DNA from: Tersicoccus phoenicis
Lineage (GTDB): Bacteria > Actinomycetota > Actinomycetes > Actinomycetales > Micrococcaceae
Direction of reading: 5' to 3'
Assembly: GCF_001968835.1 (NCBI RefSeq)
Contig: NZ_MRDE01000068.1
Location: 124,001 to 188,000, forward strand
Length of the DNA: 64,000 bases
The translations under genes and the position numbers were made by a program. Below, piece after piece: positions 5,156 to 26,958 of the stretch. How positions within the stretch are numbered: the first letter of the stretch is position 1; each line of letters begins with the position of its first letter. Below the pieces are notes generated by a model, which saw nothing but the letters and a program-made list of their open reading frames with translations, searched no databases and was not told where the DNA came from.

Positions 5156-8100
5156 GTGTCCTGGAGAACGCGTAAAGCGAATGGGCTGCACCTCGTGGCG
5201 ACTGGGCCCGCTTCTCGATCTACTCGGCGCGCCGGATCCCGTTTCTGGACCGCCGCGATCTTGCTCGCACTCCTTACCTGGGCGCTCCCGGGTACCGCAT
5301 GGGCGGCGACCTCCTGCACTCCCCAGATGAATCCCGTGCAGTGCGAGAACACGCGACCGGGAACTGACCCGGCCATCTGGGACATCAACGGTGCTGGCGA
5401 TCCGAGCATTCAGGGTTTCGCGACGGACATGAGCGTGGATGCCGGTCAACGGCTGGATTTCAAGATCAAGAGCGACGCTGCCGCCTACACGATCACCATT
5501 TTTCGCACCGGGTGGTACCAGGGCCTTGGCGCTCGACAAGTGGACAGCGTGCAACCGTCCGCTTCTCTGCCGCAAGTTCAGGATGCTTGCAAGGTCGACA
5601 GCTCGACTTCGCTCACGGACTGCGGTAACTGGAAAGTATCGGCCAGTTGGAACGTGCCGTCCACAGCGGTGTCGGGCGTTTACCTCGCCCGATTGACTCG
5701 GACGGACACCGGCGGTTCCAGCCATATCATCTTCGTCGTACGTAGCGATACCAGCCGGTCCAGTGTCGTGTATCAAACCTCCGACCCGACCTGGCAGGCA
5801 TACAACTCGTACGGGGGGGCGAGCTTCTATCAGGGCGGTACCGCCGGCCGGGCTTTCAAGGTCAGCTACAATCGTCCGTTCGCTACGCGCGGAGACGCCA
5901 GCACGGCCCGCGACTTCTATTTCGGTGCCGAGTTCCCTCTGGTGCGCTTCCTGGAACGCAACGGATACGATGTCAGCTATCTGTCCGGGGTGGACACGGA
6001 CCGGCGAGGAGCGCTGTTGAAGAACCACCGTGTCTTCATCTCGGCCGGACACGACGAGTACTGGTCCGGTGCGCAACGCGCCAACATCCAGTCCGCCCGA
6101 GATGCCGGTGTCAATCTGCAGTTTCTCAGCGGCAACGAAGGCTACTGGCGCACGCGCTACGAGAATTCACCCGTGGACGGCGGCGCGTACCGCACACTGG
6201 TCTCCTACAAAGAGACGTTGAGCAACGCCAAGATCGACCCGTCGAACGAATGGACGGGAACTTGGCGAGATCCCCGTTTCGCCACCCCAGCCAACGGGGG
6301 AGCATCGCCGGAAAATGCGCTCACCGGAACGGCGTACGTGGTCAACGACGGCCTCCTGCCCGTCACCGTCAACGCCGACGAAGGCCGAACCCGACTCTGG
6401 CGCAATACCTCGCTGACCTCCTTGTCACCCGGCACCAAAGCCGAACTCGCGCCCAACACCGTCGGATACGAATCCGATGAGGATCTTTTCAACGGATTCC
6501 GTCCGCCCGGCCTGATCCGCCTGTCCACCACCGTCGGAGACGTCCCCCAGTACCTGCAGGATTTCGGGAATACGGTCCGGCCGGGTCGCACCACCCATCA
6601 CTTGACGATGTACCGCGCCAGCAGCCGGGCACTCGTCTTCTCCGCCGGAAGCATCCAGTGGAGTTGGGGGTTGGATGCTACCCACGACGGTCTACAGTCG
6701 CCCTCCGACCAACGCATGCAACAGGCTCAGATCAACCTCCTGGCCGACATGGGAGCCCAGCCGACCACCTTGATGAGTGGCTTGGTGGCCGCTCAGGCGT
6801 CGACTGACGATCAGGCGCCTACAGTGACCATCACGTCGCGCCCGCCCCAATCGGTGCAGAACGGTCGCTCCTACACGGTCGCCGGGAGCGCTGTCGATAC
6901 CGGTGGAGGGGTGGTGGCCGGTGTCGAGTACTCCACGGACGGTGGTGTGTCCTGGTCTCCGGCGACCGGCACGACGTCGTGGACCTTCTCCTACATCCAG
7001 CACGGCCTCGGCCCTGCGTCCGTGAGAGTCCGCGCCATCGACGACAGCGCCAACACAGACCCCACAGGGACGGTGGTCTCGGTCGACGTAGCCAGCCCCG
7101 CCAGCATCTTCGGTGACACCGTGCCGCAGTCGGCGGATTCCGGCGATCCATCAGCGGTTGAACTCGGCCTGCGTTTTTCCGTGTCGCGGGACGGCTACCT
7201 TGCCGGTGCCAGGTTCTACAAGAGTGTCGCCAATACGGGCACTCATATCGGCTCGCTCTGGTCGGCGAACGGTGCACGTCTGGCGCAGGCGACCTTCACC
7301 GGGGAGACCGCCTCCGGGTGGCAGGAAGTTCGGTTCTCCACGCCGGTTCAGGTGACGGCTGGCACCACCTATACGGTCTCGTACAGCACCACGTCAGGGC
7401 GCTACGCCTATGAACCGTGGGCATTCGCTTACGGTGGACTGAGTAGAGAACCGTTCCAGGTGGCCGGTGGCGCTGGGAGCGCATCTGCTGGTGTCTACGG
7501 CGCTATCGGATCAATGCCCACCTCGTCTTATCAGAATACGAACTACAGCGTGGACGCGATCTTCGAGGGGGCGGGCGCAGTTCCGCTGGCGACCGTGGAT
7601 CAGTACCCGCTCAACACGGCGGTCAGTGTGGCGGTCGACAGCGAGATCCGCGCGGTCCTGAACAAGCCGGTCGACCCCGCCACCGTGTCGATCGTGGTGC
7701 GCGACGCTGCAGGCGCTCAGGCGTCCGGTGCCACGACGTGGGATGGGAACACCCGAACCGCGACCTTCAAGCCGAGTCAGGCGCTGCAGCGGAACACCCA
7801 GTACACGGTCACGGTCGGTGCCAAGGATGCGGCCGGTCAGTCGTTGACGAGCGGAGCTTCTTGGTCGTTCCGCACAGTGAAGCCCGACACCCCACCGGGT
7901 ACGTGCCCGTGCAGTCTCTACCAGGACTCCACCCGTCCTGCTCTCGAACTGGTTGACGACAGCTCGCTCCTCGCATCAGGGCAGCGCCTCACCCTTGGAA
8001 CACGTTTCACGACTGTGGTGCCCGGGGCCGTCACGGGGCTACGCTTCTACAAGGCTGCGGGGATGACCGGGACACATATCGGTACGTTGTTCTCCGCGGA

Positions 8101-9160
8101 CGGCACCGCGCTGTCCACCGTCACGGTGTCGAGTGAGACTGCCTCCGGATGGCAGCAGGCCACATTCAATGCTCCGGTTCAGTTGTCACCCGGTGTGGAT
8201 TACGTCATCGCCCTTAGCGGGAATGGAACCTACTCCGCTACTCCGGGCGACCTGGACGCCGCCAAATCAGTCGGCCCTCTGCGTACTGGTGCTCGCGCCG
8301 GAGCCTTCAGCTATGGTGGTGCGTTCCCCAACAACGCCTCCAGCACCTCCTACTTGGTGGATCCTGTCTTCGCCCCGGCACCTTCTGCAGCGTCGGTCTC
8401 TGTCACCGCGACGAGCCCCGCCAATGGAGCGGCCGACACCACCCCTGGTCCTCTTTCGATCAGGTTCAGCCAGCCCGTTCTCGACGGGTACACCTTCCGG
8501 GTGACCGCTGGTGCGAACGCCATCGCCGGTACTACTCGTCGGTCCGCCGACGGTACGTCGCTGACCTTCGAACCGACCGGCGCCCTCCCTGCCGCGACTG
8601 TCATCAGCGCGTCGGTGGAGAACATCAGTGCCGCCAACGGCGCTAAACTGGCCCGCACCGCATGGACCTTCAGCACGGCTTCCGCGGCTGGAAACCCGAC
8701 GACACTTCTGGGCAACTCGGTGCCTGCTGTCACTGATGCCGCGGATCCCGCACCTGTCAGTCTCGGGGTACAACTCAGCACCAGTCGTCCGATCGACATC
8801 AGAGCGTTGCGTTTCTACAAGGGCAGCAAGGACAGCGCAGGAAGCCATACGGCGACCTTGTGGGACTCGGCCGGCAACTCTCTCGCCACGGCGAAGTTCA
8901 CTGACGAGACTGCCAGCGGGTGGCAGACGGCGGTGCTCGACCGGCCCGTGCGGCTTCCCGCTGGGTCGATGTTCACCGTCTCCTATCAAGCGGTCGGTGG
9001 CTACGCCTACACCGGCGGCGCGTTCTCCGCCCCGATCTCGTCGGGACCGCTCACGTCCACGACTCCCAACGGCCGGTATTCCTATGGACAGCCGGGTGGT
9101 CTGCCGCTGCAGTCGTGGAATGCCACCAACTACTTCACCGACCTGGTGTTCTCAGAGTGA
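5156..9160 (+). CDS. Secreted protein with N,N-dimethylformamidase-like domain, Ig-like modules and three DUF4082 modules
   Basis: This is a 1334-residue exported protein. Residues 1-50 form a signal peptide (basic start, then AAILLALLTWALPGTAWA, predicted cleavage after AWA). Residues about 60-545 resemble the C-terminal domain of the N,N-dimethylformamidase large subunit, with the stretches TSDPTWQAYNSYGG, YNRPF, GHDEYWS and SGNEGYWRTR. A bacterial Ig-like module follows (about 560-645). Then come DUF4082 (about 648-805), a Big_5-type Ig module (about 815-910), DUF4082 (about 920-1076), a second Big_5 module and a final DUF4082 (about 1182-1334). The DUF4082 copies share the pattern LRFYK...GTHIG.LW...G.........ETASGWQ. 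DUF4082 is a presumed glycan-binding or adhesion module; the role of the amidase-like domain on a polysaccharide locus is not established. The GTG start has the ribosome-binding site AAAGGGGG. Confidence 0.85.
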   Translation: MSWRTRKANGLHLVATGPASRSTRRAGSRFWTAAILLALLTWALPGTAWAATSCTPQMNPVQCENTRPGTDPAIWDINGAGDPSIQGFATDMSVDAGQRLDFKIKSDAAAYTITIFRTGWYQGLGARQVDSVQPSASLPQVQDACKVDSSTSLTDCGNWKVSASWNVPSTAVSGVYLARLTRTDTGGSSHIIFVVRSDTSRSSVVYQTSDPTWQAYNSYGGASFYQGGTAGRAFKVSYNRPFATRGDASTARDFYFGAEFPLVRFLERNGYDVSYLSGVDTDRRGALLKNHRVFISAGHDEYWSGAQRANIQSARDAGVNLQFLSGNEGYWRTRYENSPVDGGAYRTLVSYKETLSNAKIDPSNEWTGTWRDPRFATPANGGASPENALTGTAYVVNDGLLPVTVNADEGRTRLWRNTSLTSLSPGTKAELAPNTVGYESDEDLFNGFRPPGLIRLSTTVGDVPQYLQDFGNTVRPGRTTHHLTMYRASSRALVFSAGSIQWSWGLDATHDGLQSPSDQRMQQAQINLLADMGAQPTTLMSGLVAAQASTDDQAPTVTITSRPPQSVQNGRSYTVAGSAVDTGGGVVAGVEYSTDGGVSWSPATGTTSWTFSYIQHGLGPASVRVRAIDDSANTDPTGTVVSVDVASPASIFGDTVPQSADSGDPSAVELGLRFSVSRDGYLAGARFYKSVANTGTHIGSLWSANGARLAQATFTGETASGWQEVRFSTPVQVTAGTTYTVSYSTTSGRYAYEPWAFAYGGLSREPFQVAGGAGSASAGVYGAIGSMPTSSYQNTNYSVDAIFEGAGAVPLATVDQYPLNTAVSVAVDSEIRAVLNKPVDPATVSIVVRDAAGAQASGATTWDGNTRTATFKPSQALQRNTQYTVTVGAKDAAGQSLTSGASWSFRTVKPDTPPGTCPCSLYQDSTRPALELVDDSSLLASGQRLTLGTRFTTVVPGAVTGLRFYKAAGMTGTHIGTLFSADGTALSTVTVSSETASGWQQATFNAPVQLSPGVDYVIALSGNGTYSATPGDLDAAKSVGPLRTGARAGAFSYGGAFPNNASSTSYLVDPVFAPAPSAASVSVTATSPANGAADTTPGPLSIRFSQPVLDGYTFRVTAGANAIAGTTRRSADGTSLTFEPTGALPAATVISASVENISAANGAKLARTAWTFSTASAAGNPTTLLGNSVPAVTDAADPAPVSLGVQLSTSRPIDIRALRFYKGSKDSAGSHTATLWDSAGNSLATAKFTDETASGWQTAVLDRPVRLPAGSMFTVSYQAVGGYAYTGGAFSAPISSGPLTSTTPNGRYSYGQPGGLPLQSWNATNYFTDLVFSE

Positions 9161-9167
9161 GGTGACC

Positions 9168-9944
9168 ATGCGTAAGCGAACACTGCTTGGTCTAGTCAGT
9201 TTCGTCGTCGTGCTGGGCGTGGCCGTGGCATGGATTCCTATGGCCGGATCCGGGACGGCGACCTCGGAAGCTAGGACGGGCACCGGCCTTCCCACAGCTA
9301 GCAGCGCTCCGACCACCGGCCCTCCGGGGCTGCCACCATCGCGCGAGCGTTCCGGTCCGAGCGCCAGCGGTCGTGGATCAGCAACTGCGTCGTCGAGCGC
9401 GACACCGACCAATCGTCCTTCCCTGCAGCCGTCGTCCTCGCCACCGCAGAACCGTCCAGGTACCACGCCCACGGCCGTGCCATCTGGACCGATCGCCGGG
9501 CCACGGGCGGGGAACCTGGAGGGGAAACCAGGAGCGACGCCGACGCCGTACCGGTTACCGATGCCAGCCCGCAGTTCAGCGGCGCCACTGACGACGGCGC
9601 CGACGCCGGGGACCGCCTCCGGCGGCTTGACTCGGGGATTCCCCGTCGACGCCATGCCGGTATACCCCGGATCCGCGATCCAGTCCTCTTCCTCATCGGG
9701 TGGCAAGCCGACCGTCCAATTGACATTGCTCGCCACCGCCGCGGCCGCCCCGAGGTCTATCACGACCTTCTACAAGACTGAACTGACTCGTCGAGGCTGG
9801 GTTGTATCCGTGGCAGAGTCACTCAGCGGCTCGGTGACGCTGACCGCGACGTCGGGACGCAACACCGTCACGATCACGGCCAACCGAGCGGGGACGGCAC
9901 GGTCCGGATACTCGGCCCTGGGGACTTTCACGATCGCAGGTTGA
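9168..9944 (+). CDS. Secreted or membrane-anchored Pro/Ser/Thr-rich protein of unknown function
   Basis: The gene codes for 258 residues starting at ATG 9168, preceded by GAGTGAGGTG and only 7 nt after the upstream stop, so it is probably co-transcribed with the DUF4082 protein. It has an N-terminal hydrophobic segment (LLGLVSFVVVLGVAVAWIPMAG) acting as signal peptide or anchor. A low-complexity linker rich in P, S, T and G spans about residues 30-155. The compact C-terminal domain of about 100 residues has FPVDAMPVYPGSAIQ followed by ITTFYKTELTRRGW and alternating beta-strand sequence. The C-terminal part looks like a small soluble alpha/beta fold displayed outside the membrane on a wall-spanning linker. 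I do not recognise the family. The longer reading frame upstream in the same phase overlaps the preceding gene and is not used. Confidence 0.7.
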   Translation: MRKRTLLGLVSFVVVLGVAVAWIPMAGSGTATSEARTGTGLPTASSAPTTGPPGLPPSRERSGPSASGRGSATASSSATPTNRPSLQPSSSPPQNRPGTTPTAVPSGPIAGPRAGNLEGKPGATPTPYRLPMPARSSAAPLTTAPTPGTASGGLTRGFPVDAMPVYPGSAIQSSSSSGGKPTVQLTLLATAAAAPRSITTFYKTELTRRGWVVSVAESLSGSVTLTATSGRNTVTITANRAGTARSGYSALGTFTIAG

Positions 9945-10573
9945 GTGCCACGGTGCCGGTCCACCCTGTCGCCAGCGCCCAGTTGCCGAGCCTTCTCGTA
10001 GCGTCGACGACCTCGCTGGTACAAGCCACTTCTTTCGCTTATCGCGGGAGCGCTCCCGGTCCACCGAGAGCACGCGACTTCGTCCCCGGGCCAGCGACTG
10101 GCAGACCTCGACCATGATCTCCACCACGTACTCTGCCGCCCACAGTCAAGGATACGTCAAGCATAAATAGCGTGGTCACTCGTCAACCACCCGTAGGGCT
10201 TCCGTGCGGTTCGAGTAACGCAACTGCTTACACTTCGAGAGGAAGTTGGGTTCTGGGGAAATCGACTAGGTCTCACACTCGACGACTGATTCAGTCGGAG
10301 CACTGGTTGGGTATTTGGCCCAGCGGTCAGGGCAGTGAGTCATGCGGACGATCAGAGACCGCTCGCTGACTCTTGCATGACGATCTCAGATGGGACTGGT
10401 CGTGTGTCGAGGACGGTCGAGCATCCAGCCGTCGGGGTCGCCGATCGAGGTCGACGGCGAGCGTTGTCAAGGGTCGGGTCCTTGGGTCTAGTGATTGTGG
10501 TTGGGGGCTCATCGGCTGCGAGGTCGTGAGCGGATCGCCGGTGGCGATCGCGGGGAATCAAGGGGGTGGGGGA
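9945..10573. other. 629-bp non-coding gap upstream of the exopolysaccharide operon
   Basis: No credible gene is visible on either strand. Features are a 14-bp perfect palindrome, CGGGAGCGCTCCCG (10045-10058), possibly a terminator stem for the preceding pair of genes or an operator, and an AT-rich patch around 10146-10172 (including GCATAAATAG) that stands out in this GC-rich sequence and could hold a promoter. The ribosome-binding site AGGGGGTGGGGG (10561-10572) lies directly before the ATG at 10574. Upstream in-frame codons back to 10373 read as low-quality coding sequence and are treated as leader. Confidence 0.55.
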
Positions 10574-12097
10574 ATGACGCAGCTGGATGGAGAGATTGCG
10601 GCACGAGTTCCGGCAATGGGGGATTTTGCAGCGTCCGTGCCGGCGGCGCTGAGCGGATTCGACTCGCATGTCAGAGCAATGCGCTCCGGGGGGTGGTCTC
10701 GCCGTTTTCGAAGAATGCTCTGGATACTGGACTCGGCCATCGTCGTCGCGTCAGCCTTCCTGGTGCCGGTCGTTCTGCATTCGTACGCGTTCGCGGCGAA
10801 CGGAATGCTTCCGCGGGCTGCGCTGCAATCGAGCATTGTAATGGCGATCTGGTTGTGTGCTCTGAGCTGGTCGCACAGCAGGGATGTGCGGGTACTCGGC
10901 GTCGGTGCCGCCGAGTACCGGGCGGTGTTCAATGCCGGTGCAGCGTCGGTCGGCGCTGCGGCTGTGTTGTTCCTGCTCGTCCAGGCCGAATCCCGCAGCT
11001 TCGTGTTCCTCGCCATCCCCTTCGGTACCCTGGCCCTCCTTGCGGAACGGTGGGCGGCCCGCCGCTGGTTGACTCATCGCCGCAGCGATGGTCAATTCCG
11101 GTCGAAGGTCGTGGTGCTCGGTCAGCGAGCGGACGTCGAATACGTCACCGAACAGATCGTGAAGAAGCTCGGCGCCGTCTACCACATTGTTGCAGCCGTG
11201 ATGGAAGACACCGACGATGTGCAGTCGCTGCAGCGCGGGGGAAACCTGGTTCCGGTCTACAACACCGTGCAGGAAGTTCCGTCCATCGTCCAGAAGTTCG
11301 GTGCCGACGCGGTGATCGTGGCGGGTCAGCTTGCGCGGGGGAGCGGATTCATCCGGGAACTGGGGTGGGAGCTCGAACGAACCAACACCGAGTTGGCCGT
11401 TGCCTCGTCCTTGACGAACGTCGCCGGGCCACGTATCCGTTTCCGGCCCGTCGAAGGACTGCCTCTCATGCACGTCGAGCTACCGCACTTCACGGGTACC
11501 CGCCATGTGTTCAAGCGCGTCGTCGACGTCGTCCTGGCCTGCGCAGCGATCGTCGTCCTCAGTCCGCTGCTCGGCGTGCTGGCCATTGCCGTCCGGCAGG
11601 ACAGCCCGGGGCCAGCACTGTTCCGGCAGGTCCGGATCGGCCTGCACGGTGCACCGTTCACGATGTTCAAGTTCCGGTCGATGGTGGTCAGCGCAGAACA
11701 GGACCTCGCGGCCCTGACGCAACTCAACGAGGGTGCGGGCGTGTTGTTCAAGCTGCGCGCTGACCCACGGATCACACGAATCGGGAAAGTACTGCGCAGA
11801 TTTTCCCTCGATGAGCTACCCCAGCTGTTCAACGTGGTCAGGGGTGACATGTCGCTGGTCGGACCGCGGCCGCCCTTGCCGTCCGAGGTCGCGAATTACG
11901 ACGGGTTCGTCCACCGCCGCTTGTTCATCAAGCCCGGCGTCACCGGGTTGTGGCAGGTGAACGGGAGGTCGGACCTGAACTGGGAGGAAAGCGTCCGGCT
12001 CGATCTCTACTACGTCGAGAATTGGTCCCTCGCCGGCGACGTCATGATTCTCTGGCGGACGTTCAGGGCGGTCGTCGCCCCGAATGGAGCCTACTGA
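10574..12097 (+). CDS. Polyprenyl-phosphate glycosyl-1-phosphate transferase (initiating sugar transferase, WbaP/CpsE type)
   Basis: This enzyme starts the repeat unit by moving a sugar-1-phosphate from a nucleotide sugar onto undecaprenyl phosphate at the inner membrane face. The 507 residues comprise several N-terminal membrane segments (LWILDSAIVVASAFLVPVVL and others), a Rossmann-like central region (VVVLGQRADVEYV) and a C-terminal bacterial sugar transferase domain from about residue 315. The C-terminal domain begins with a reentrant hydrophobic helix (VVDVVLACAAIVVLSPLLGV). It contains FKFRSM, DELPQLFNVVRGDMSLVGPRP (the D-E pair is the conserved catalytic acid pair) and the final PGVTGLWQVNGRS. 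The start at ATG 10574 is chosen for its strong ribosome-binding site. It is the first gene of the plus-strand operon; which sugar is transferred is not known. Confidence 0.92.
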   Translation: MTQLDGEIAARVPAMGDFAASVPAALSGFDSHVRAMRSGGWSRRFRRMLWILDSAIVVASAFLVPVVLHSYAFAANGMLPRAALQSSIVMAIWLCALSWSHSRDVRVLGVGAAEYRAVFNAGAASVGAAAVLFLLVQAESRSFVFLAIPFGTLALLAERWAARRWLTHRRSDGQFRSKVVVLGQRADVEYVTEQIVKKLGAVYHIVAAVMEDTDDVQSLQRGGNLVPVYNTVQEVPSIVQKFGADAVIVAGQLARGSGFIRELGWELERTNTELAVASSLTNVAGPRIRFRPVEGLPLMHVELPHFTGTRHVFKRVVDVVLACAAIVVLSPLLGVLAIAVRQDSPGPALFRQVRIGLHGAPFTMFKFRSMVVSAEQDLAALTQLNEGAGVLFKLRADPRITRIGKVLRRFSLDELPQLFNVVRGDMSLVGPRPPLPSEVANYDGFVHRRLFIKPGVTGLWQVNGRSDLNWEESVRLDLYYVENWSLAGDVMILWRTFRAVVAPNGAY

Positions 12098-12127: not shown

Positions 12128-13252
12128 ATGGTCTCGATAGATCCTTTCGGGGGCGTTACCACGCGAACTGGCGAACCGTTGCGTGTTGCGGTTGTCGGCG
12201 CCGGTTACTGGGGCCCCAACCTGGCCAGGAATTTCCATGGCAGCACGGACTGGGAACTGGTCGCGGTGGTCGATGCAGATCTGAAACGAGCCCGAAGGCT
12301 CGCAGCCATGATCGGCGGCGTGCGGGCCTTCGGGTCCCTCGACGTCATGTTGATGTCGGTCGAGGTCGACGCGGTCGCCATCGCGACGCCTGCCCGAACG
12401 CATCACCCGATCGCCGTTGCGGCGCTCCGAGCCGGGAAGCACGTGGTGGTGGAGAAGCCACTCGCGGCCACTGTCGAGTTGGCGCGCGACATGATCACCG
12501 AGGCGGACAGCCGCGGCCTCGTGCTCATGGCTGACCACACGTACTGCTACACGCCGGCAGTGACCAGGATCCGGGAGCTGGTCCAGGCTGGCGAACTCGG
12601 GGAACTCCTGTTCATCGACTCGGTCCGCATCAATCTGGGACTGGTCCAGCCGGACGTCGATGTGCTGTGGGACCTGGCCCCCCACGACCTCTCTATTCTG
12701 GATTTCATCCTGCCCGGCGGCTTGCGCCCGGAATCCGTGATCGCGCAGGGCGCCGATCCGCTCGGAACCGGCAGAGCATGCGTCGGTCATCTGTCGTTCG
12801 CCCTGGCCGGTGGTGCGATGGCGCACATCCATGTCAACTGGCTCAGCCCCACCAAGATTCGCCAGATGGTGATCGGCGGGTCGAGACGGACGTTGGTATG
12901 GGACGACCTGAATCCCCAGCAGCGGCTGAGCGTGTACGACCGGGGCGTCGATCTGGAACGGGTTTCCGCTGCCTCGGCGGACCGCACGTCCTCCGCCATC
13001 TCGTACCGGCTCGGTGACACGTGGTCTCCCGCCCTTCCCGAGCGAGAAGCGCTCGGTGCCATGGTCACGGAGTTCGCCGACTGCATCCGGCAGGGTCGGC
13101 CTTCTCGCACGGGCGGAGACTCCGGGCTGCGTGTGCTCTCCGTGCTGGAGGCGTCGCGACGCAGCCTCGCCACCGACGGGGCGCGGAGCGACGTCGATCG
13201 GGGATACTTCCACGTCGGTCTGGGGAACGAACAATTGGAGGGGGCACGATGA
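12128..13252 (+). CDS. Gfo/Idh/MocA-family nucleotide-sugar oxidoreductase
   Basis: This 374-residue NAD(P)-dependent dehydrogenase has an N-terminal Rossmann fold (VAVVGAGYWGPNLARNF, about residues 20-36) and the family hallmark EKP (VVVEKPLAA), followed by the C-terminal beta-sheet substrate domain (DLAPHDLSILDFIL). Relatives such as WbpB/WlbA oxidise C3 of UDP-N-acetylglucosaminuronic acid so that an aminotransferase can act. An aminotransferase of the matching type is encoded at 16181, which supports a 3-amino sugar role here; the exact substrate remains inference. The ATG is preceded by AGGAAG 5 nt upstream. The stop overlaps the next start (ATGA). Confidence 0.85.
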   Translation: MVSIDPFGGVTTRTGEPLRVAVVGAGYWGPNLARNFHGSTDWELVAVVDADLKRARRLAAMIGGVRAFGSLDVMLMSVEVDAVAIATPARTHHPIAVAALRAGKHVVVEKPLAATVELARDMITEADSRGLVLMADHTYCYTPAVTRIRELVQAGELGELLFIDSVRINLGLVQPDVDVLWDLAPHDLSILDFILPGGLRPESVIAQGADPLGTGRACVGHLSFALAGGAMAHIHVNWLSPTKIRQMVIGGSRRTLVWDDLNPQQRLSVYDRGVDLERVSAASADRTSSAISYRLGDTWSPALPEREALGAMVTEFADCIRQGRPSRTGGDSGLRVLSVLEASRRSLATDGARSDVDRGYFHVGLGNEQLEGAR

Positions 13253-17314: not shown

Positions 17315-17316
17315 CG

Positions 17317-18786: not shown

Positions 18787-20036
18787 GGGTCCTCGTTTAT
18801 CCGCACGACCTCAACGTGGGTGGCAGCCAGCTCGGGGCGATCGAGCTGTGCGGGGCAATGGCTCGGCTCGGGCACGAGGTCGTGGTTTATGGGCAACCCG
18901 GTCCGTTGGTCGAACAGGTCCGAGCCCTGGGCCTCGAGTTCCTGTCGTCCCCCGCCGTCCACCAAAGACCGACACCGACCGTCGTCGCCCACTTGGCACG
19001 GACCCTGCGCCGCCGCCACGTCGACGTGGTCCATGGCTACGAGTGGCCACCCGTGCTGGAGTCCTGGCTCGCCTGCCTGGGCGGCGGCGGACCGGTCGCC
19101 GTGGCCACGGTGCTGTCGATGTCGGTTGCCCCGTTCATTCCCAGACAGGTCCCAATCGCCGTGGGCACCGCACAGATCGCCGCAGCGGAACGCCGATTCG
19201 GCCGCCAAAGCGTCACCCTGCTCGAGCCGCCCGTGGATGCCGAGGCCAACACGCCTGGTCTTACGGACGTCGACGTCACCGGCTTTCGGCTGTCTCATGG
19301 GATCGCCCCGAACATACCCACAGTCTCGATCGTGTCCCGGTTGGCGCGGGAGATGAAGCTGGAGGGCATCCTCACCGCCATCGCCGCGGTGGAAGCGCTC
19401 AACGAGCGCACTCCCGTCCAGCTCGTCATCACCGGTGACGGCCCGGGTCGCTCCGATGTGTGCAACCGCGTCGAACGGGCCAATGCGCGGATCGGGTCTC
19501 GACGGGTGATCTGGACCGGCGAGCTGGTCGACCCCCGCCCTGCCTATGCAACTGGAGACGTCCTCCTGGGCATGGGGGGATCAGCGCTCCGATCCATGGC
19601 GTTCGAGAAGCCGCTGATCGTGCAAGGGGAGAAGGGATATTGGCGAATGCTCACCCCGGAGTCACTGCCGGAGTTTCTCTGGCAGGGCTGGTACGGGGTC
19701 GGACCCGGCACCGACGGGGCGGTAGACCGGCTCGTCGGCCAGCTGCGGAGCCTGCTCGAGGATCGCGCCCGGGCCGAGGACCTGGGAGGATTCGCTCGCG
19801 GCGTGGTGCTCGATCGGTTCTCCCTGGACAGGGTGGCCTCCCGGCAGATCGACTTCTACCGGAAAGCACTGGCATCGCGACGTTCGGGATTCGCCGTGCC
19901 CGGCGAGACCGTCGTGGCTGGGGCCCGATTCGTGGCACATCAAGCGCGGCGGGTGAACGCACGTCGGCGTGGCCGGTCAACCGTCGACGACTTCAACGCC
20001 ACTCCGGTGGCAGCGGTCTCGGAGAGGTCGTCATGA
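18783..20036 (+). CDS. Glycosyltransferase, GT-B fold (family 4-like)
   Basis: The 417-residue cytoplasmic glycosyltransferase has an N-terminal acceptor domain starting VLVYPHDLNVGGSQLGAIELCGAMARLGHEV, the glycine-containing loop typical of GT4. Its C-terminal nucleotide-sugar domain shows VSIVSRLAREMKLEGILTAI and LVITGDGPGR, followed by an RSMAFEKPLIV segment where the family has its E-rich donor site. It probably adds one sugar to the lipid-linked repeat unit on the cytoplasmic face. Donor and linkage cannot be read. It is coupled to both neighbours by ATGA overlaps. Confidence 0.85.
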   Translation: MRVLVYPHDLNVGGSQLGAIELCGAMARLGHEVVVYGQPGPLVEQVRALGLEFLSSPAVHQRPTPTVVAHLARTLRRRHVDVVHGYEWPPVLESWLACLGGGGPVAVATVLSMSVAPFIPRQVPIAVGTAQIAAAERRFGRQSVTLLEPPVDAEANTPGLTDVDVTGFRLSHGIAPNIPTVSIVSRLAREMKLEGILTAIAAVEALNERTPVQLVITGDGPGRSDVCNRVERANARIGSRRVIWTGELVDPRPAYATGDVLLGMGGSALRSMAFEKPLIVQGEKGYWRMLTPESLPEFLWQGWYGVGPGTDGAVDRLVGQLRSLLEDRARAEDLGGFARGVVLDRFSLDRVASRQIDFYRKALASRRSGFAVPGETVVAGARFVAHQARRVNARRRGRSTVDDFNATPVAAVSERSS

Positions 20037-21256
20037 ACCACACCGATCCTCCCATACTGGTTCTGATCGCCGGCAGCCGCTGGGACGACATCCGCGGTAC
20101 CGATCATCGTCTTGCCGAGTCCCTGGCTCGACGGGCCAGTGTCCTGTGGGTCGACCCCCCGGTCCCTTTGCTCGGACCGGCGTCCAGCCGCCGTCCCGGC
20201 GTGGTGCCGGGATACGAGCTGGAGGAGATTCGCCCCGGCCTGCGCCGACTTCGGGTGCTCGCACCACCTGGGTTCACCCGACCGGTGCTGCGGACCATCG
20301 CCGCAGCGCTCGCCGGCTCGGCGATGCGGCGGGCGCTCGGACCACACCGTCCGACCGCAATGATATTGCTCTCGCCCCGCGATAAGTTCCCGTCACGAGT
20401 TCCGGGCACCCGGGTGCTGCACGTGACCGACGACTGGATCGCCGGCGCGACGATGATGGGACTCGACCAGGCACGGGTTCGCCGCACGCTGCGAGCGAAT
20501 GCAGCCCGTGCGGACGTCATCACGACCGTGTCGCCCGGTCTCAGCGACGATCTTGCGACCTTAGCCGGCGAGACGGAGGTGACTCTGCTCCCCAATGGGT
20601 GCACCCCCTGCGCGGGATCCGTTCCCTTACCGGCGCGGCGCCGAGTCGCCGGATTGGTGGGACAACTGAATGAACGACTGGACGTGAACCTGTTGGAAGC
20701 ACTCGTTCGCACCGGCATCGACATCGAAGTGGTCGGCCCCCTCCGCGCCCGTGAACCCGACTGCGGCAGACGGCTGACCACCTTCTTGAACTCCCGTGGT
20801 GTCACCTGGCTCGGGGAGCTGTCCGAGGCGGGTGCGGCCGAGCGGGTCGCCAGCTGGTCGGTCGGTTTGACGCCCTATCGGCAGGATCGGTTCAACCGGG
20901 CGAGCTTTCCCCTGAAGACGCTCGATTACCTGAGCGCCGGCGTACCGGTGGTCTCGACCGATCTGCCCGCATCCCGCTGGCTCAGCTCCAAGTGGGTGCA
21001 CGTCGCTGAGAACCAACAGGACTTCATCGCTGCCGTCACGGCCGCTCTAGCGAACGAGTGGCAGGCCGGGGACGCAGCGGCGCGTCGAGCCTTCGCGGGT
21101 CGGCACACGTGGGACGCGCGGGCGGCCCACCTCCTGGCGATCGCCTCAACAACCGCATCTTCTCGATCGAGCCGAATCATTCCGGTCTCTCGCCGACTGC
21201 TCCGCCAGGACGGTCAGGATACCGTCCGCGGTTCCGTACCCACATCCACGAGGTGA
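20033..21256 (+). CDS. Glycosyltransferase, GT-B fold (GT1/GT4-like)
   Basis: This 407-residue protein starts at ATG 20033, overlapping the previous stop (ATGA). It reads as a GT-B enzyme: GSRWDDIRGTDHRLAESLARRASVLWVDPP at the N-terminus, VLHVTDDWIAG and DVITTVSPGL in the hinge region, then GLVGQLNERLDVNLLEAL and SFPLKTLDYLSAGVPVVSTDLPA, the donor-binding region of family-4 enzymes. The last 45 residues are a low-complexity basic tail. It likely adds a sugar to the repeat unit; donor unknown. Confidence 0.85.
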   Translation: MNHTDPPILVLIAGSRWDDIRGTDHRLAESLARRASVLWVDPPVPLLGPASSRRPGVVPGYELEEIRPGLRRLRVLAPPGFTRPVLRTIAAALAGSAMRRALGPHRPTAMILLSPRDKFPSRVPGTRVLHVTDDWIAGATMMGLDQARVRRTLRANAARADVITTVSPGLSDDLATLAGETEVTLLPNGCTPCAGSVPLPARRRVAGLVGQLNERLDVNLLEALVRTGIDIEVVGPLRAREPDCGRRLTTFLNSRGVTWLGELSEAGAAERVASWSVGLTPYRQDRFNRASFPLKTLDYLSAGVPVVSTDLPASRWLSSKWVHVAENQQDFIAAVTAALANEWQAGDAAARRAFAGRHTWDARAAHLLAIASTTASSRSSRIIPVSRRLLRQDGQDTVRGSVPTSTR

Positions 21257-21260
21257 CACC

Positions 21261-22133
21261 ATGCCCCTGACCATCGACCACGTGCTTCTGACGCGTTTCA
21301 ATCTGCCGTCGCCGGGAGTGGAAAGCTTGGTACGTGCCAAGGAGGGCTGGTTGCGGAATCGACAATCGCTCTTCGAGCGGTACTGTCTTCCCTCGGTGCG
21401 AGCCCAGGTGCAGCGATCGTTCCACTGGATCATTTATCTCGATGTGCAGAGCCCCGATTGGCTGAAGAACCGCATCACCGAACTCTCGCACGACGGCCTG
21501 TTTGTCCCGATCTATCGGGAAGAAGTGCCCCGGGACGACCTCCTGAAGGACATCCGTGCTGTGACTGGCGCTGCGGGCGACGTACTGCTGACCACGAACC
21601 TCGACAATGATGACGCCGTCGCGGTGGATTTCGTCGCCCGCCTCCAGAAAGGCGTCGCGGGTACTGCTCGCCGGGCGCTGTATCTGACCAATGGGCTGAT
21701 CATGCAGACCGACGCGCTCTACCGGCACCGCGATGTCAGCAATGCCTTCTGTTCGGTCGCGGAAAGCTGGAATGCACCCGTCACGTGCTGGTCCGACTGG
21801 CACAACCGACTGGAGTACTCGATGCCCGCGACCCGGCTCCACGGCGCGCCCGGTTGGTTGCAGGTTGTCCATGGCGGCAACGTCAGCAACCGGGTCCGGG
21901 GGGTACGAGTGCGCCCGGATCGCTACACCGCGCTGTTTCCTTCGGTTGTGGCGACCATGCCACAGCCGAGGTCACGTGACCTCTGGATGGACCAGCTCGT
22001 GCGCAGCCGGGTACGGCTGCTCCGGGACGGCGCGCGGGCGGTGGCCAAGCGGACCATTCTCCAGGTTGGCGGCAAGGCGGGTCTCGATCGGATCAAGGTG
22101 CTTGTCGCAGGCCGGACACGTGCGGGTGGATAG
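21261..22133 (+). CDS. Putative rhamnosyl transferase-family glycosyltransferase
   Basis: The 290-residue protein matches the family known as putative rhamnosyl transferase (GT-A-like). It begins IDHVLLTRFNLPS, contains WLRNRQSLFERYCLPSVRAQVQRSFHWIIYLD, and has TTNLDNDDAV at the expected metal-binding DxD position. The gene follows the previous stop by 4 nt. The dTDP-rhamnose genes at 30-33 kb could supply its donor, but the family name rests on weak evidence and the donor is not proven. Confidence 0.8.
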   Translation: MPLTIDHVLLTRFNLPSPGVESLVRAKEGWLRNRQSLFERYCLPSVRAQVQRSFHWIIYLDVQSPDWLKNRITELSHDGLFVPIYREEVPRDDLLKDIRAVTGAAGDVLLTTNLDNDDAVAVDFVARLQKGVAGTARRALYLTNGLIMQTDALYRHRDVSNAFCSVAESWNAPVTCWSDWHNRLEYSMPATRLHGAPGWLQVVHGGNVSNRVRGVRVRPDRYTALFPSVVATMPQPRSRDLWMDQLVRSRVRLLRDGARAVAKRTILQVGGKAGLDRIKVLVAGRTRAGG

Positions 22134-22225
22134 CCCGGGGAAGCGAAAGGATGACGACAACGAGGACGGTCTCAGGTCGTCGAAGCAGGAAAGACAACGG
22201 ACACCGGAAGAGTGGGGCTTGAACA

Positions 22226-23008
22226 ATGTTCGTCAGGGACTTCATCTCGAGCTGTCGCAGGCTTTGGTACGTCGTGCTGGTTGGCCTTGCCATCACGGCC
22301 GTGGCCACCATCACCGTTTTCGGCGCAATCAAGCCGACGTACGAGGCTGGCGCCAGCGTTGTTCTCATCCCGCCGAAGGTCGCTGTCACAGTGGGCGACA
22401 ATCCCTATCTGTACCTGGGCGGTCTGGACCAGGCCGTCGGTGTGCTCCGAGTGAAGGTGACCTCGCCCGAGGTTGCCGGAGCGCTGTTGGATCGTTACCC
22501 CGGGAGTGCGCTCTCGATCGTTCAGGACACGACTACCAGTGGACCCATCATGGCCATCACGGCCACCGCCGATGATGCCGGCTCCGCGATGCAACTGCTC
22601 GCTGGCACGGTGGCGCTGATGCCCAAGACCCTTGCAGAGCTGCAGACGTCACTGAAGGTGCCGGCAGCTTCCACCATCACGATGATGGAACTCTCCCGGG
22701 ATTCCACCGCCAAGAGTGTGGACAAACAGCAGTTGCAGGCGACCGTACTGACCGCGGTCGTCGGCACAGCAGCCACCATCCTCATCACTGGGCTGCTGGA
22801 CCGGATGCTGGCGCGACGCAGATCCGGCGGGGCGGCAGAGCCAGAAGCGGAACCCGGTGACCGCGGGGAAGCGGAGGACCCGGCCCGGGCGGACGAGGCG
22901 GACTCGGGCGCGACCGACGACAGGGACGACGCGACGGCTGCGCCCCGAGCGACAGAATTCTATGAACCGGAGGCTGTGGAACAGGGCAGAGCGCGTGTCG
23001 AGGTCTGA
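22226..23008 (+). CDS. Chain-length-determinant-like (Wzz-type) membrane protein without kinase domain
   Basis: The 260-residue protein has a Wzz-like plan. A short cytoplasmic N-terminus is followed by a first membrane helix (LWYVVLVGLAITAVATITVFGAI), an extracytoplasmic region of about 135 residues (YEAGASVVLIPP and onward) and a second helix near residues 170-192 (VLTAVVGTAATILITGLL). A charged, acidic C-terminal tail of about 65 residues ends it. There is no P-loop tyrosine kinase domain. Such proteins set polymer length together with the polymerase. The last 47 nt overlap the next gene if that starts at 22962. The 92-nt gap before it is the largest break within the operon after 12128. 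Confidence 0.75.
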   Translation: MFVRDFISSCRRLWYVVLVGLAITAVATITVFGAIKPTYEAGASVVLIPPKVAVTVGDNPYLYLGGLDQAVGVLRVKVTSPEVAGALLDRYPGSALSIVQDTTTSGPIMAITATADDAGSAMQLLAGTVALMPKTLAELQTSLKVPAASTITMMELSRDSTAKSVDKQQLQATVLTAVVGTAATILITGLLDRMLARRRSGGAAEPEAEPGDRGEAEDPARADEADSGATDDRDDATAAPRATEFYEPEAVEQGRARVEV

Positions 23009-25025
23009 AACATTGTCGTCGACGGCAGCGCCGATCGCGGTGGCGTCACCAGTAACACGCGGCGTGAGGGGTGGCAGCACCGCTTGGCGTCGTGGCATCG
23101 ACGCCACGACCGTCTTGACCGTCTATGTGGTGCTGCTGCTGGTGGTGCCGTCCGACCGCGGGGTCGCTGCGCTGGGTGCAGCGGGATCGCCTGCCAGCAT
23201 CTTCGGTTCGATCATGTTGCTGTGGTGGGCGTGGTACCACATCCGCCGGATCACCAGCACTACCACTCATCGGGTACAACCGGTGCGGATCGCCTTGTTC
23301 ATCTTCATCATGTGCGTGTTGGCATCCTTCGTGAAGGCAGCACTCACCGCGCTGCCGCAGGAGAACGCCAACGGTTCCATGACGGGGCTGATCACCGTCG
23401 CGTCCTGGGCGGGCGTCGTGCTGGTGGCCAACGACGGTATCCGAAGCAAGGAGCGGCTTTTGGTGCTGGTCCGCCGTATCTGCTGGCTCGGAGCTGCATA
23501 CTCCGCGCTCGGGTTGTTGCAGTTCGTCACCGGACAGAATTTAGTCGACGCCGTCGCTACACCGGGGCTGTCGTCCGTCGGGCAAGGAGCGGTAGACACC
23601 CGAGGTGGTTTCATCCGGCCAGAAGCCACCGCGCGGCACGCTCTGGAGTTCGCGTCGGTGTTGTCGATGACGTTTGCGCTGGCCTTGTTCCTGGCGCAGA
23701 AGTCGTCGCGGAGCGTGGCGCAGCGCTGGACGCCAGCGGCCCTCACGTTCGCTGCCGCGGTCGTGTCACTGACCAGGTCTGCGCTGCTGGGCATTGTTTC
23801 CGTCCTTGTGGTCCTGTTTCCCAGCTGGGACCGCCGAATGCGCCGGGCGGTGGCGGTGGCGGCGTTGATCGGAATCACCGGTGCACTGGCGCTGGCCCCG
23901 TCGTTAGCCAGCACCGTCCGGGCCATGTTCAATCCCGAGGATCCGAGCCTGGTGTCCAGGACGTCCAGCTACGACATCGTCGGCAGTTATGTGGCCGCTT
24001 CCCCGTGGTGGGGACGGGGACTCGGCACGCTGGATCGCTCCTACCACATCTTCGACAACCAGTACATCGGTCTACTGATCCAAATCGGCGTCATCGGTCT
24101 GGCCGCGTTCCTCGGCGTCGTCTTGACCGCAGCAGCCACGGGGATGGCGCAGCGCCGCGACGCCGACCCGGACCTCGCGGCGCTCGGACCTGCGTTGAGC
24201 GCTGCCGTGGTCTCGGGTGCCTTGCTGTTCGCCTTCTTCGATGCGTTCTACTTCCCGCAGAGCGTCGGCCTGTTGTTTCTCGTGGTGGGGTTGTGCGGAG
24301 CTCTCCGGAACCTTCATCGCGCCGACAGGCCCGGGCGCATGCAGGGCATGCACGTCGCCGAGCCGAGCGTCCGGCGGTGGAGCGCAGTCCTGGCGCGCCG
24401 GTGGTACGTCGCCCTGGCGGTATGTCTGGCGGCGATTCCCATTGCGGCAGCCGCCAGATCCGTGCCCGGTGTCTACTACACCGAGTTCGACGTCCGGTTC
24501 GAGGCTCCGCCGCGGGCAACGAGGAGCAACCCGCTCCGGACGGAAGCACCCATGATCGTCGGCTTCGCGGCAATAGTGCAGCGGATGTATGTCGGCAGCC
24601 ACCCGAACTACCCAATCCGGCCCACCAGCGCTCCCTTGTTCGGTACCGGGGCGCGAAGCGCGCAGGCCGTCTACCTGCCGGATGCTGGGGGGCAGTGGCA
24701 GACCAACTTCAACACACCAGCCATCCGGGTCGAGGTGGTGGGCGACTCTCCTGACGCGGTCCTGGCCCGGTCTCGTGGGATCGCGTCGACGCTGACGTCG
24801 CTGGCGAAAGTGCCTCAAGATGCCATCGGCGTCCGGGCGGGGGCGAGGATCGAGACCGCGCGCCAAGCAGCCGGGGATGTGGTGGTCTCGGAACAGCGGG
24901 TGCGGACGTCCTACGCTGTGGCCGCCACGAGTGCGCTCGCCGTGGGCGTAGCGCTCGGCCTGTCCGGGCTGACTGATCACGTGGTCTGGCGCCGGCCTCG
25001 AGGAGTCAGGCGGCGCCAGCAATGA
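22962..25025 (+). CDS. O-antigen ligase/polymerase-like membrane protein with C-terminal chain-length-type domain
   Basis: The 687-residue membrane protein has many hydrophobic helices in its first 450 residues and a large extracytoplasmic loop typical of the Wzy/WaaL family, including RSALLGIVSVLVVL, SRTSSYDIVGSYVAASPWWGRGLG and DNQYIGLLIQIGVIGLAAF. It is the best polymerase candidate for the repeat unit. From about residue 465 it changes character: a basic RRWYV, a membrane helix (ALAVCLAAIPIAAAA), about 170 extracytoplasmic residues, then a last helix (SYAVAATSALAVGVALGL) and a basic end. That plan mirrors the Wzz-like protein encoded just upstream. ATG 22962 is used; GTG 22995 is an alternative start, and neither has a strong ribosome-binding site. 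Confidence 0.78.
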   Translation: MNRRLWNRAERVSRSETLSSTAAPIAVASPVTRGVRGGSTAWRRGIDATTVLTVYVVLLLVVPSDRGVAALGAAGSPASIFGSIMLLWWAWYHIRRITSTTTHRVQPVRIALFIFIMCVLASFVKAALTALPQENANGSMTGLITVASWAGVVLVANDGIRSKERLLVLVRRICWLGAAYSALGLLQFVTGQNLVDAVATPGLSSVGQGAVDTRGGFIRPEATARHALEFASVLSMTFALALFLAQKSSRSVAQRWTPAALTFAAAVVSLTRSALLGIVSVLVVLFPSWDRRMRRAVAVAALIGITGALALAPSLASTVRAMFNPEDPSLVSRTSSYDIVGSYVAASPWWGRGLGTLDRSYHIFDNQYIGLLIQIGVIGLAAFLGVVLTAAATGMAQRRDADPDLAALGPALSAAVVSGALLFAFFDAFYFPQSVGLLFLVVGLCGALRNLHRADRPGRMQGMHVAEPSVRRWSAVLARRWYVALAVCLAAIPIAAAARSVPGVYYTEFDVRFEAPPRATRSNPLRTEAPMIVGFAAIVQRMYVGSHPNYPIRPTSAPLFGTGARSAQAVYLPDAGGQWQTNFNTPAIRVEVVGDSPDAVLARSRGIASTLTSLAKVPQDAIGVRAGARIETARQAAGDVVVSEQRVRTSYAVAATSALAVGVALGLSGLTDHVVWRRPRGVRRRQQ

Positions 25026-25079
25026 TCGATGGTCCGGTCGGACCGTGCCCGAGGACGCCCCGACCGGACCTCTGATCAG
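25023..25079. terminator. Bidirectional hairpin terminator between convergent genes
   Basis: A perfect 11-bp stem, GGTCCGGTCGG (25031-25041) with its complement at 25060-25070, is extended outward after a 3-nt mismatch by TGATC/GATCA. It lies exactly between the convergent stops of the polymerase-like gene and the minus-strand secreted enzyme. Confidence 0.75.
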
Positions 25080-25101
25080 CGCTGAAGCGGCAGCGGCAGA
25101 A

Positions 25102-26958
25102 TTAGAGCTTGACCCGATAGATGTGGTAGCTGGACTCGTTCGCGAAGCCGTCCGTGAACACACCGCCTGACACGGGGATCGAACGATTCTCGCCAACCAC
25201 CTCCACCGAACTGGCCGAGAACTCACTCGGCAGGCGGAACGTCCGACTACCGGGAGAAGACTTGCCGTCGATCATGGCGAAGACATAAGCATCACCGTTG
25301 TAGCTCTTGAGCATCGTGTCCAGCCCAGAGCCGAAGGAGTACTGGTAGGACTGAGTGTTCAGCACAGGGGCCAGACTCTTGATCTGATTGTTGACCTCGG
25401 AGGCCGCTCGTACTTGGTCCGCGCCGCAGAAGCCGCTGGTCGTCTGCGCCTGACGGATCAGGCTACCGCCCTGGCACGGACCCGAGAGGCTCTGGTTGAA
25501 GTAGACGATGCCGCGGGCCTCGTTGATGACTGAAGCCATCACTGCACCTTTGAGCTGGTCGGCCGAGACGTTCGCGGTGAACGGACCTTCACCGGGCCCG
25601 CCGTTGAGCAGTTCGACGAACTGCCACGGGGCTTGCAGCTTGCCATCGGTGGCATCTTGTTGTCGCAACGCCTTCATGGTGGTTCCATAACTGGAGGCAG
25701 TGCGGCAGTTTTCTTGGGTGATGGGAAGGATGTAGTTCTGGCGGAACGGGACGTTGCTGCAGAAGGGAATCGTATACCAGTACATGTCCAACGAGACAGC
25801 GTCGGTGTAGTTGTTCACGTAGGCGCGGGCGTCCTGCTGATTCATATCGGCACTCATGACCATCTGAGTGAAATTGGCGTAGCGGAATCGTCCAGTGCCG
25901 ACGGCCTGGTCGGACAGGTTCTGGAGGTACTGGCGTCCTTCGGCAGGGGTGAACCGACCATCCACTTCGTCGTCGAGGAAGTTTCCGACCCAGTTCGTAC
26001 TCGCGTCAGTGAAGGAGCTGTTGAGCTTTCCTCCGATCCAGTAGACGCCGTTGTCCCGGAACAAGGAATACGGCGTACTGGGGTCCATGCCGATATAGGT
26101 GTTGATTCCCACGGACTTGTCGTACGCGGCCTCACGGTTGGAACTGATGCCGTTGTACCAGGCGACGATGGGAAAGAAGGACGGATCGGACCACCCAGCG
26201 GCGTTCGCCTTGCTGAACTGTTTCCAGTACGCGGAGCCTCCCTCCCACGGAATGCGAGGCAGGTTAAGGGCACTGGGCGCAGGTGTCGACGGCGTCGGTG
26301 TAACGGTGGTCGTGGGGGCTGGGGTTGCGGGTGACGGGTTCCCGGGAGTGAAGACCGGTTCGACGAAGTAGTTCGCGTTCTGGTAGCGCTGAGACGGAGC
26401 ATTTCCGCCGTTCCCGTACGCATACACCCCGCTTCCGACTGGATAGGTGAGAGCTCCAACGGTCACGGCATCGTCCCGACCGTTTAGATCAGCCGAGTAG
26501 CGGCCCCGAGGCGCCAGGTAGGAGGCGATATACGTGCTCCCTTTTGCGATCTTCACCGGTGTAGGCAAAGTAATCGTCTGCCAGCCGGAGTTGCTTTCGT
26601 CCGTTGGGTTCGCCGCCCCGCTGGCGAGTTCTCTGCCGTCGGCCGACCAGAGGGTAACCGTGTGTGGTCCCACGTTGGCGGCGCCCTTGTAAAAGCGGAT
26701 TGCGGACACGACTCCATCATCGGTGGGCGAGAAAAGCGAACCCAGTTCCACGGAGCGGTCATCATCCACCGTCACCGTTGACGGAGTTGTCGGGGCAGGG
26801 CCGGTGCTCGCTCCCGGTGTGGGCACCAACGTATCGGCGGTGGCGCTCATCATGGGAGTGAGCGAGGTCGTCAGTGAAAGGGCCGTCATAATGGCCATGA
26901 CCGCGAGTCTGGACCTGCGACGACGCGTGCCGCGCCAAGATACGGGAATGGGATGCAT
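25102..26958 (-). CDS. Secreted DUF4082 protein with glycoside-hydrolase-like catalytic region
   Basis: This 618-residue exported protein has a basic N-terminus and a hydrophobic core (LAVMAIMTALSLTTSLTPMMSATA) as signal peptide. A DUF4082 module follows (about residues 65-205: LGSLFSPTDDGVVSAIRFYKG, ESNSGWQTITLP, YQNANYFVEPVF), then a Pro/Thr linker and a region of about 380 residues. The last region looks like a TIM-barrel glycan-active enzyme, with WSDPSFFPIVAWYNG, YIGMDPS, NFLDDEVDGRF, SLDMYWYT and ARGIVYFNQS; the acidic DDE and DMYW stretches are candidate catalytic sites. I infer a polysaccharide hydrolase or lyase that trims or releases the polymer made by the cluster. The family is not securely identified. 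Confidence 0.7.
   Translation of the reverse strand: MHPIPVSWRGTRRRRSRLAVMAIMTALSLTTSLTPMMSATADTLVPTPGASTGPAPTTPSTVTVDDDRSVELGSLFSPTDDGVVSAIRFYKGAANVGPHTVTLWSADGRELASGAANPTDESNSGWQTITLPTPVKIAKGSTYIASYLAPRGRYSADLNGRDDAVTVGALTYPVGSGVYAYGNGGNAPSQRYQNANYFVEPVFTPGNPSPATPAPTTTVTPTPSTPAPSALNLPRIPWEGGSAYWKQFSKANAAGWSDPSFFPIVAWYNGISSNREAAYDKSVGINTYIGMDPSTPYSLFRDNGVYWIGGKLNSSFTDASTNWVGNFLDDEVDGRFTPAEGRQYLQNLSDQAVGTGRFRYANFTQMVMSADMNQQDARAYVNNYTDAVSLDMYWYTIPFCSNVPFRQNYILPITQENCRTASSYGTTMKALRQQDATDGKLQAPWQFVELLNGGPGEGPFTANVSADQLKGAVMASVINEARGIVYFNQSLSGPCQGGSLIRQAQTTSGFCGADQVRAASEVNNQIKSLAPVLNTQSYQYSFGSGLDTMLKSYNGDAYVFAMIDGKSSPGSRTFRLPSEFSASSVEVVGENRSIPVSGGVFTDGFANESSYHIYRVKL

Follow-up and report, generated by a model that had tools for sequence, protein, structure and literature searches.

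The systems closest to the one described here are the PNAG and Pel operons, in which PgaB and PelA each combine, on a single polypeptide, an exported N-deacetylase with a hydrolase that cuts the exopolysaccharide (EPS), linked to a single polymer operon. The hydrolase activity of PgaB requires deacetylation (PMC5933820). The Psl operon similarly encodes a glycosidase barrel, PslG, which has neither a DUF4082 module nor an amidase partner. The locus analyzed here encodes two exported proteins, P1 and P2, for which we propose comparable roles. In contrast to PgaB and PelA, which serve synthase-type polymers and use another deacetylase family, P1 and P2 are separate polypeptides encoded with a Wzx/Wzy operon, and they bring together an iron amidohydrolase-type domain and a barrel without a sequence-family match; no polysaccharide-deacetylase (CE4-type) domain was found by Pfam in either. 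The likeness is best seen as an analogy of role between enzymes that are unrelated. A literature search returned no description of such a surface-polymer enzyme pair, which an earlier note on this DNA had called undescribed.

Both genes lie in a 64,000-nt stretch of Tersicoccus phoenicis (Micrococcaceae) DNA, hereafter the window (GCF_001968835.1, contig NZ_MRDE01000068.1, 124,001–188,000 of the forward strand), and all coordinates are window positions. P1 (1334 aa, 5156–9160, +) and P2 (618 aa, 25102–26958, −) were confirmed as DUF4082 reading frames in the places and orientations first proposed. Between them, all on the + strand, run genes for an initiating sugar transferase (Bac_transf, EPS_sugtrans; 10373–12097), a Gfo/Idh/MocA nucleotide-sugar dehydrogenase that served as the operon marker in genome counts (12128–13252), an SDR nucleotide-sugar dehydratase/epimerase (13246–14367, its reading frame being open upstream from 13021), a DegT-family aminotransferase (14364–15506; nearest solved: TlmJ, perosamine synthetase), a NeuD/PglB/VioB-type sugar N-acetyltransferase (15510–16184; nearest solved: VioB) and a second DegT-family aminotransferase (16181–17314). 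These are followed by a Wzx-type flippase of the MOP family (17311–18786), a glycosyltransferase of the family 4 fold (18783–20036), a further glycosyltransferase with an approximate start (20027–21256), a putative rhamnosyl transferase (Rhamno_transf; 21261–22133), a Wzz-like chain-length protein without a Pfam match that is assigned from its position and hydrophobic segments (22226–23008), and a Wzy/O-antigen-ligase-type polymerase (PF04932; 22962–25025). The proposal that P1 and P2 bracket this operon is half right. Polysaccharide genes continue past P2 to ~35.5 kb, namely a WecG/TagA glycosyltransferase fused to two GT2 domains (27125–29887, −), an RmlC–RmlD fusion for dTDP-rhamnose (30020–31645, −), an RmlB-type dTDP-glucose dehydratase (31434–32432, −), an RmlA-type nucleotidyl transferase (32395–33390, +) and a UDP-glucose/GDP-mannose dehydrogenase (34014–35501, −), and P2 is therefore not a border gene but sits within the larger EPS region.

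We consider it fairly probable that P1 and P2 are enzymes exported to process one kind of Wzx/Wzy-dependent EPS bearing N-acylated amino sugars. The Gfo dehydrogenase, the SDR, the two DegT aminotransferases and the VioB-like acetyltransferase would make and N-acetylate the amino sugar, the sugar transferase and glycosyltransferases would assemble the repeat unit, Wzx would flip it and Wzy polymerize it. Outside the membrane, the mononuclear-iron amidohydrolase domain of P1 would take N-acyl groups off part of the residues and the barrel of P2 would cut the chain and thereby control its length or free the polymer, while the lectin-like DUF4082 modules would keep both enzymes on it.

The N-terminus of P1 is signal-peptide-like when judged by eye, with a hydrophobic stretch ending in TAWAA. 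What had been read as an amidase-like domain is DMFA2_C, of a rare amidase family (Pfam, E 4e-101, 339.5 bits against a cut-off of 27; residues 112–508, 5489–6679, +), and two Big_5 Ig-like domains can be added to that earlier description. Single-sequence PDB searches gave no match for P1 or P2; it took a profile search to relate the catalytic domain of P1 to the large subunit of Paracoccus N,N-dimethylformamidase (DMFase; 6LVB, E 2e-66) and to N-acetyl-(R)-beta-phenylalanine acylase (8HUY, E 1e-60). The catalytic domains are homologous, but P1, unlike these enzymes, is exported and multidomain. Because the match begins only at residue 309 of the 775 in 6LVB, leaving the N-terminal DMFase region without a counterpart, P1 is assigned the shared catalytic domain and not filed as a DMFase. 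The 2-Tyr-1-Glu iron ligands of the Paracoccus enzyme, Y399, Y440 and E521 (PMC7686228), align with Y216, Y225 and E301 of P1, and H519 aligns with H299. None of the four P1 positions varies across the 23 homologues compared, whose identity falls as low as 19%. Judged from this alignment, P1 retains the 6LVB iron site in complete form and is predicted to hydrolyze amides. P1 could instead be a structural anchor whose DUF4082 and Big_5 repeats keep the capsule attached to the cell and whose DMFA2_C domain is a degenerate scaffold, as its multi-module architecture of Ig-like and lectin-like domains, with at most about 4–7 DUF4082 copies in relatives, might suggest. A decayed scaffold should, however, have lost the iron ligands and the neighbouring histidine, and their invariance makes this role for P1 quite improbable. 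As for an EPS-processing P1, we know of no solved DMFA2_C relative that works on a polysaccharide, and our literature search found no description of DMFA2_C in polysaccharide loci.

DUF4082 (PF13313; gathering score 28.4 bits) accounts for three stretches of P1 (E 5e-117, 386.8 bits) and one of P2 (E 2.2e-43, 148.1 bits), as the earlier note had counted them. The P1 modules lie at 7118–7552, 7946–8359 (profile match 7979–8359) and 8717–9136 (+), the P2 module lies at 26362–26790 (−), and a profile search of the 3.21-Mb genome matched only these four. The RFYKG and SGWQ signatures noted previously are real and conserved across modules, with K35, G69 and W70 (P2 module numbering) invariant in 26 modules and Q71 nearly so. 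The predicted model is a lectin-like beta-sandwich, an arrangement shared with the lectin-like domain of Cwp84 (4CI7, Z 11.0) and the N-terminal region of polyvinyl alcohol esterase (9KR0, Z 8.0), although sequence kinship to either is undetectable and the DUF4082 profile gave only chance-level matches against PDB sequences. Pfam matches to PHR and human adenovirus E3A fell under the cut-off (E 1e-4 to 8e-3) and were taken as fold echo or chance. PHR domains have the same fold and, to our knowledge, are not known to bind glycans. From the fold and the company that these modules keep, DUF4082 may well bind the polymer made by the operon; for the Cwp84 domain itself, binding of sugars is unproven (PMC4089489). 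The literature searched describes no function for DUF4082 and mentions it once in passing.

The region of P2 that had been called glycoside-hydrolase-like (residues 233–618, 25105–26262, −) had no match in Pfam, NCBIfam or PDB-sequence searches, profile searches included. AlphaFold predicts it (pLDDT 94.9) as a (beta/alpha)8 barrel followed by a C-terminal beta-domain, and the model compares with GH42 (5e9a, VIA Z 23.0) and GH164 (6t6g, VIA Z 22.4). These and GH140 are closer to the barrel than PslG is (VIA Z about 15.7). In the model, E331 and E449, the candidate acid/base and candidate nucleophile, stand at the ends of strands 4 and 7; they are conserved in 30/30 and 29/30, respectively. The modelled P2 domain is clan GH-A-like and has a plausible catalytic Glu pair.

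Among 245 Micrococcaceae genomes, DUF4082 above the cut-off occurs in 50 and the operon Gfo gene in 56, and they coincide in 49, leaving one genome with DUF4082 alone and seven with Gfo alone. The GH domain was found in 46 genomes, 44 of them with DUF4082 (Fisher 1e-42 for DUF4082–Gfo and 2e-39 for DUF4082–GH, kinship uncorrected). The co-occurrence with polysaccharide operons anticipated in the earlier note is thus non-random, and chance placement of DUF4082 genes is rejected. Nor is the partner EPS in general: five genomes carry a sugar transferase at another locus and have no match for the Gfo marker, DUF4082, DMFA2_C or GH. DUF4082 enzymes track one EPS type. Two genomes devoid of sugar transferase, Gfo and GH carry a broken P1 gene: in G189 an in-frame stop falls inside the DMFA2_C domain and the frame changes further on; in G167 there are frame breaks and two stops, and the C-terminal part is lost. 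Since the DUF4082 enzymes are inherited almost only with one kind of amino-sugar EPS operon, they probably act outside the cell to trim and cut its polymer. As a pair, P1 and P2 are both tied to the operon but separable. Five genomes with operon and P1 lack GH even by profile search, two have GH without P1 or DUF4082, and one has the operon with neither P1 nor GH, so that a strictly obligate pair is rejected. The GH-type protein goes with the operon whether or not DUF4082 is present, and the GH tree shows at least seven gains or losses of DUF4082.

These enzymes might instead serve in scavenging or competition, acting on foreign polysaccharides (plant, fungal or competitor EPS) and travelling with a surface-polymer island in an accessory-gene hotspot. 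DUF4082 genes without EPS genes nearby do occur, in two genomes and on plasmids of Methylobacterium, Methylovirgula, Bradyrhizobium, Pararhizobium and Arthrobacter Rue61a; such genes are mostly plasmid-borne, and some DUF4082/DMFA2_C genes lie alongside type I secretion genes. The DUF4082 model is likewise similar to domains of phage fibres and baseplates, and P1 can be distant from the operon, at 100–330 kb in g22 and part of g10. Yet the operon accompanies DUF4082 in all but one of the 50 genomes, P1 is broken in the two genomes noted above without any sugar transferase, the five genomes with another sugar-transferase locus lack it, and in many genera the GH gene is part of the operon and usually shares its strand, all of which makes a scavenging role unlikely. 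In 12 of 17 large-contig genomes, P1 is within 40 kb of a sugar transferase, against 0.6 expected.

Few neighbours are as constant as the WecG/TagA–GT2 gene (45 of 60 loci), and P1 might accordingly act on N-acyl groups of a cell-wall polymer, with this adjoining gene pointing to a wall-linked product and P2 alone being the EPS enzyme. P1 follows EPS sugar genes, however, in Rhizobium and a cyanobacterium too, both of them without teichoic acid; we regard a wall substrate as very improbable. Outside Micrococcaceae, a P1-type gene lies within about 8 kb of a sugar transferase in four of six assessable genomes. In Rhizobium leguminosarum, Paracoccus and the cyanobacterium Gloeothece, DUF4082 genes sit next to relatives of the operon sugar genes, and the sugar-gene set is found beside DUF4082 genes in other actinobacteria as well. 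Literature searches found no description of this operon in Arthrobacter, and a paper on the Micrococcus capsule is silent on these enzymes.

We advance more tentatively, as a possibility that we would not yet call probable, that proteins combining DMFA2_C and DUF4082 are new iron-dependent EPS de-N-acylases and DUF4082 a new carbohydrate-binding module for amino-sugar EPS, common to Actinomycetota, rhizobia and cyanobacteria. Together with a new GH-A-like family inside the operon, they would form a deacylate-then-cut system convergent with PgaB and PelA. DUF4082 and most DMFA2_C proteins have so far lacked an assigned biological role, and the present data offer both a concrete, testable one in processing one class of N-acylated amino-sugar EPS. 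If this is true, an unrelated iron-based chemistry is added to polysaccharide deacylation, and the matched hydrolase could be used as a tool against matrices of this kind in rhizobia as well as soil actinobacteria.

The gene that directly follows P1 (9192–9944, +) encodes another exported protein, without a Pfam match; like P1 and P2, it found no match in NCBIfam. Its C-terminal ~100 residues recur, weakly, near P1 homologues.

P1 (5156-9160, plus strand) comprises by Pfam a DMFA2_C domain, three DUF4082 modules and two Big_5 domains, and P2 (25102-26958, minus strand) one DUF4082 and a 386-residue domain without a match in Pfam. Both N-termini are signal-peptide-like stretches as judged by eye, and DUF4082 was found nowhere else in the genome, which has 3,209,563 bases and is of Micrococcaceae type, with Arthrobacter and Specibacter as closest named relatives and Sinomonas and Pseudarthrobacter more distant. 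From P1 to P2 run genes for a sugar transferase, a Gfo/Idh/MocA dehydrogenase, an SDR, two DegT aminotransferases, a NeuD/VioB-type acetyltransferase, Wzx, glycosyltransferases and Wzy. The operon thus lies between the two proteins as the earlier note stated, but P2 is not the outer border of the locus: WecG/TagA-GT2, RmlCD, RmlB, RmlA and a UDP-sugar dehydrogenase continue beyond it, placing P2 inside the exopolysaccharide (EPS) locus. The Wzy-type polymerase (22962-25025) extends at its C-terminus into a long tail that contains hydrophobic segments and resembles a chain-length (Wzz-like) region.

Among 245 family genomes, DUF4082 over the cut-off occurs in 50, DMFA2_C in 54, the glycosidase-like GH domain of P2 in 46 and the Gfo gene, the operon marker, in 56; Gfo and DUF4082 coincide in 49 genomes and GH and DUF4082 in 44, with p-values inflated by kinship. 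Evidence independent of counting comes from transferase-only genomes, broken P1 genes and recurrence in distant lineages. Five genomes, two of the window's own genus (G015, G045) and three of genera otherwise bearing the locus (G003, G006, G009), have a sugar transferase yet lack the Gfo marker, and DUF4082, DMFA2_C and GH were all absent from them. In G189 and G167 of genus g22 the P1 gene is broken, and neither the operon nor any sugar transferase was found. The association with EPS is real and stronger than sequence alone could tell.

A profile built from 23 DMFA2_C domains hits the large subunit of Paracoccus dimethylformamidase (2e-66) and also N-acetyl-(R)-beta-phenylalanine acylase (1e-60). 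The dimethylformamidase iron ligands Y399, Y440 and E521 and the nearby H519 (PMC7686228) align with P1 Y216, Y225, E301 and H299, which are invariant in 23/23 domains, so by alignment the P1 active site is intact. Known relatives hydrolyse N-acyl bonds. DegT is near perosamine synthetase and the acetyltransferase is of NeuD/VioB type; the operon is predicted to N-acetylate an amino sugar, which would be a fitting substrate for P1.

The P2 model (pLDDT 94.9) shows a barrel with a C-terminal beta-domain. VIA places this model closest to the GH42 beta-galactosidase 5e9a (Z 23.0, 3.9 A, 318 aligned), with GH164 6t6g second (Z 22.4, 3.8 A, 312 aligned), then GH140 (Z 19.2) and, at Z about 15.7, PslG. 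E331 at the end of strand 4 (conserved 30/30) and E449 at the end of strand 7 (29/30) form a candidate pair of the kind that a retaining enzyme of clan GH-A would have. DUF4082 is modelled (pLDDT 92.8) as a beta-sandwich, and its closest structural match is the Cwp84 lectin-like domain (Z 11.0, 2.6 A, 121 aligned), whose sugar binding was left open by its authors (PMC4089489); phage fibre and baseplate domains (Z 10-11), PHR (10), a polyvinyl alcohol esterase (8.0) and a carbohydrate esterase (7.6) follow, and the modelled fold fits a binding module. The proposal that DUF4082 binds the polymer while the enzymes modify and cut it is partly supported: association and enzyme competence are well supported by sequence comparison and structure prediction, and binding and activity are putative. 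Most likely, P1 would deacylate and P2 cleave the exported chain, by analogy with PgaB, whose hydrolase depends on its deacetylase (PMC5933820); the likeness is of role and not descent, since P1 has no CE4-type domain.

From genus to genus the order BacTransf-Gfo-SDR-DegT1-NeuD-DegT2-Wzx-GT-GT-RhamT-Wzz-Wzy is largely conserved, and in most cases the GH gene lies within the operon on the same strand. DUF4082 fusion to GH changed at least seven times on a quick GH tree, four of them forced by starred branches; the GH enzyme therefore belongs to the operon itself, and DUF4082 is an optional addition to it. P1 lies within 40 kb of a sugar transferase in 12/17 large-contig genomes, but in g22 and some of genus g10 the distance is 100-330 kb. 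Any model must account for five operon-and-P1 genomes without GH, two GH genomes without P1, and DUF4082 genes on plasmids away from EPS loci, whose products may target a polymer with its genes at another site in the host, or one from another organism. Stand-alone GH copies lie outside any recognisable EPS cluster in Sinomonas (L112, L113, L148).

Beyond the family, DUF4082 exceeded the cut-off in 8 other genomes among 396 Actinomycetota; six of these have contigs of sufficient length, and in 4 of the 6 a sugar transferase stands no more than about 8 kb from DUF4082, with relatives of Gfo and DegT close by. On Rhizobium leguminosarum pRlvE, two DMFA2-DUF4082 genes adjoin Gfo-DegT-acyltransferase-SDR-DegT, a flippase and a sugar transferase, and relatives of the same sugar genes occur in Paracoccus and the cyanobacterium Gloeothece. 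In the EPS locus of Paracoccus liaowanqingii (L194), a formyltransferase-family gene (5443-6327), which hints at N-formyl sugars, adjoins a DUF4082 gene whose product has no DMFA2_C match. Downstream of alphaproteobacterial DUF4082 genes (L188 22443-26026, L190 19694-23193, L192 20078-23628) stand genes for a peptidase-domain ABC transporter and HlyD, so these DUF4082 proteins are probably type I secreted, in contrast to the signal-peptide actinobacterial ones. Mesorhizobium sp. Root157 (L139) carries a GH family member at 55% identity, with WecG-GT2, Rhamno_transf and a sugar transferase as its neighbours, likely the result of transfer between phyla. The whole actinobacterial operon is present in a record titled Sporosarcina beigongshangi (Bacillota; L123 1-21167), which looks mistitled or contaminated.

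Within the window, 9192-9944 encodes a small exported protein without a Pfam match; its C-terminal ~100 residues have weak counterparts (E 4e-7 to 1e-3) close to P1 homologues, including in genomes whose P1 is remote from the operon (G140, G189), making it a possible third partner. Two large LuxR-type regulators stand in tandem at 99-4690, and because in many related genomes a relative of the second, LuxR2 (25-58% identity), precedes the sugar transferase, the pair probably controls the locus.
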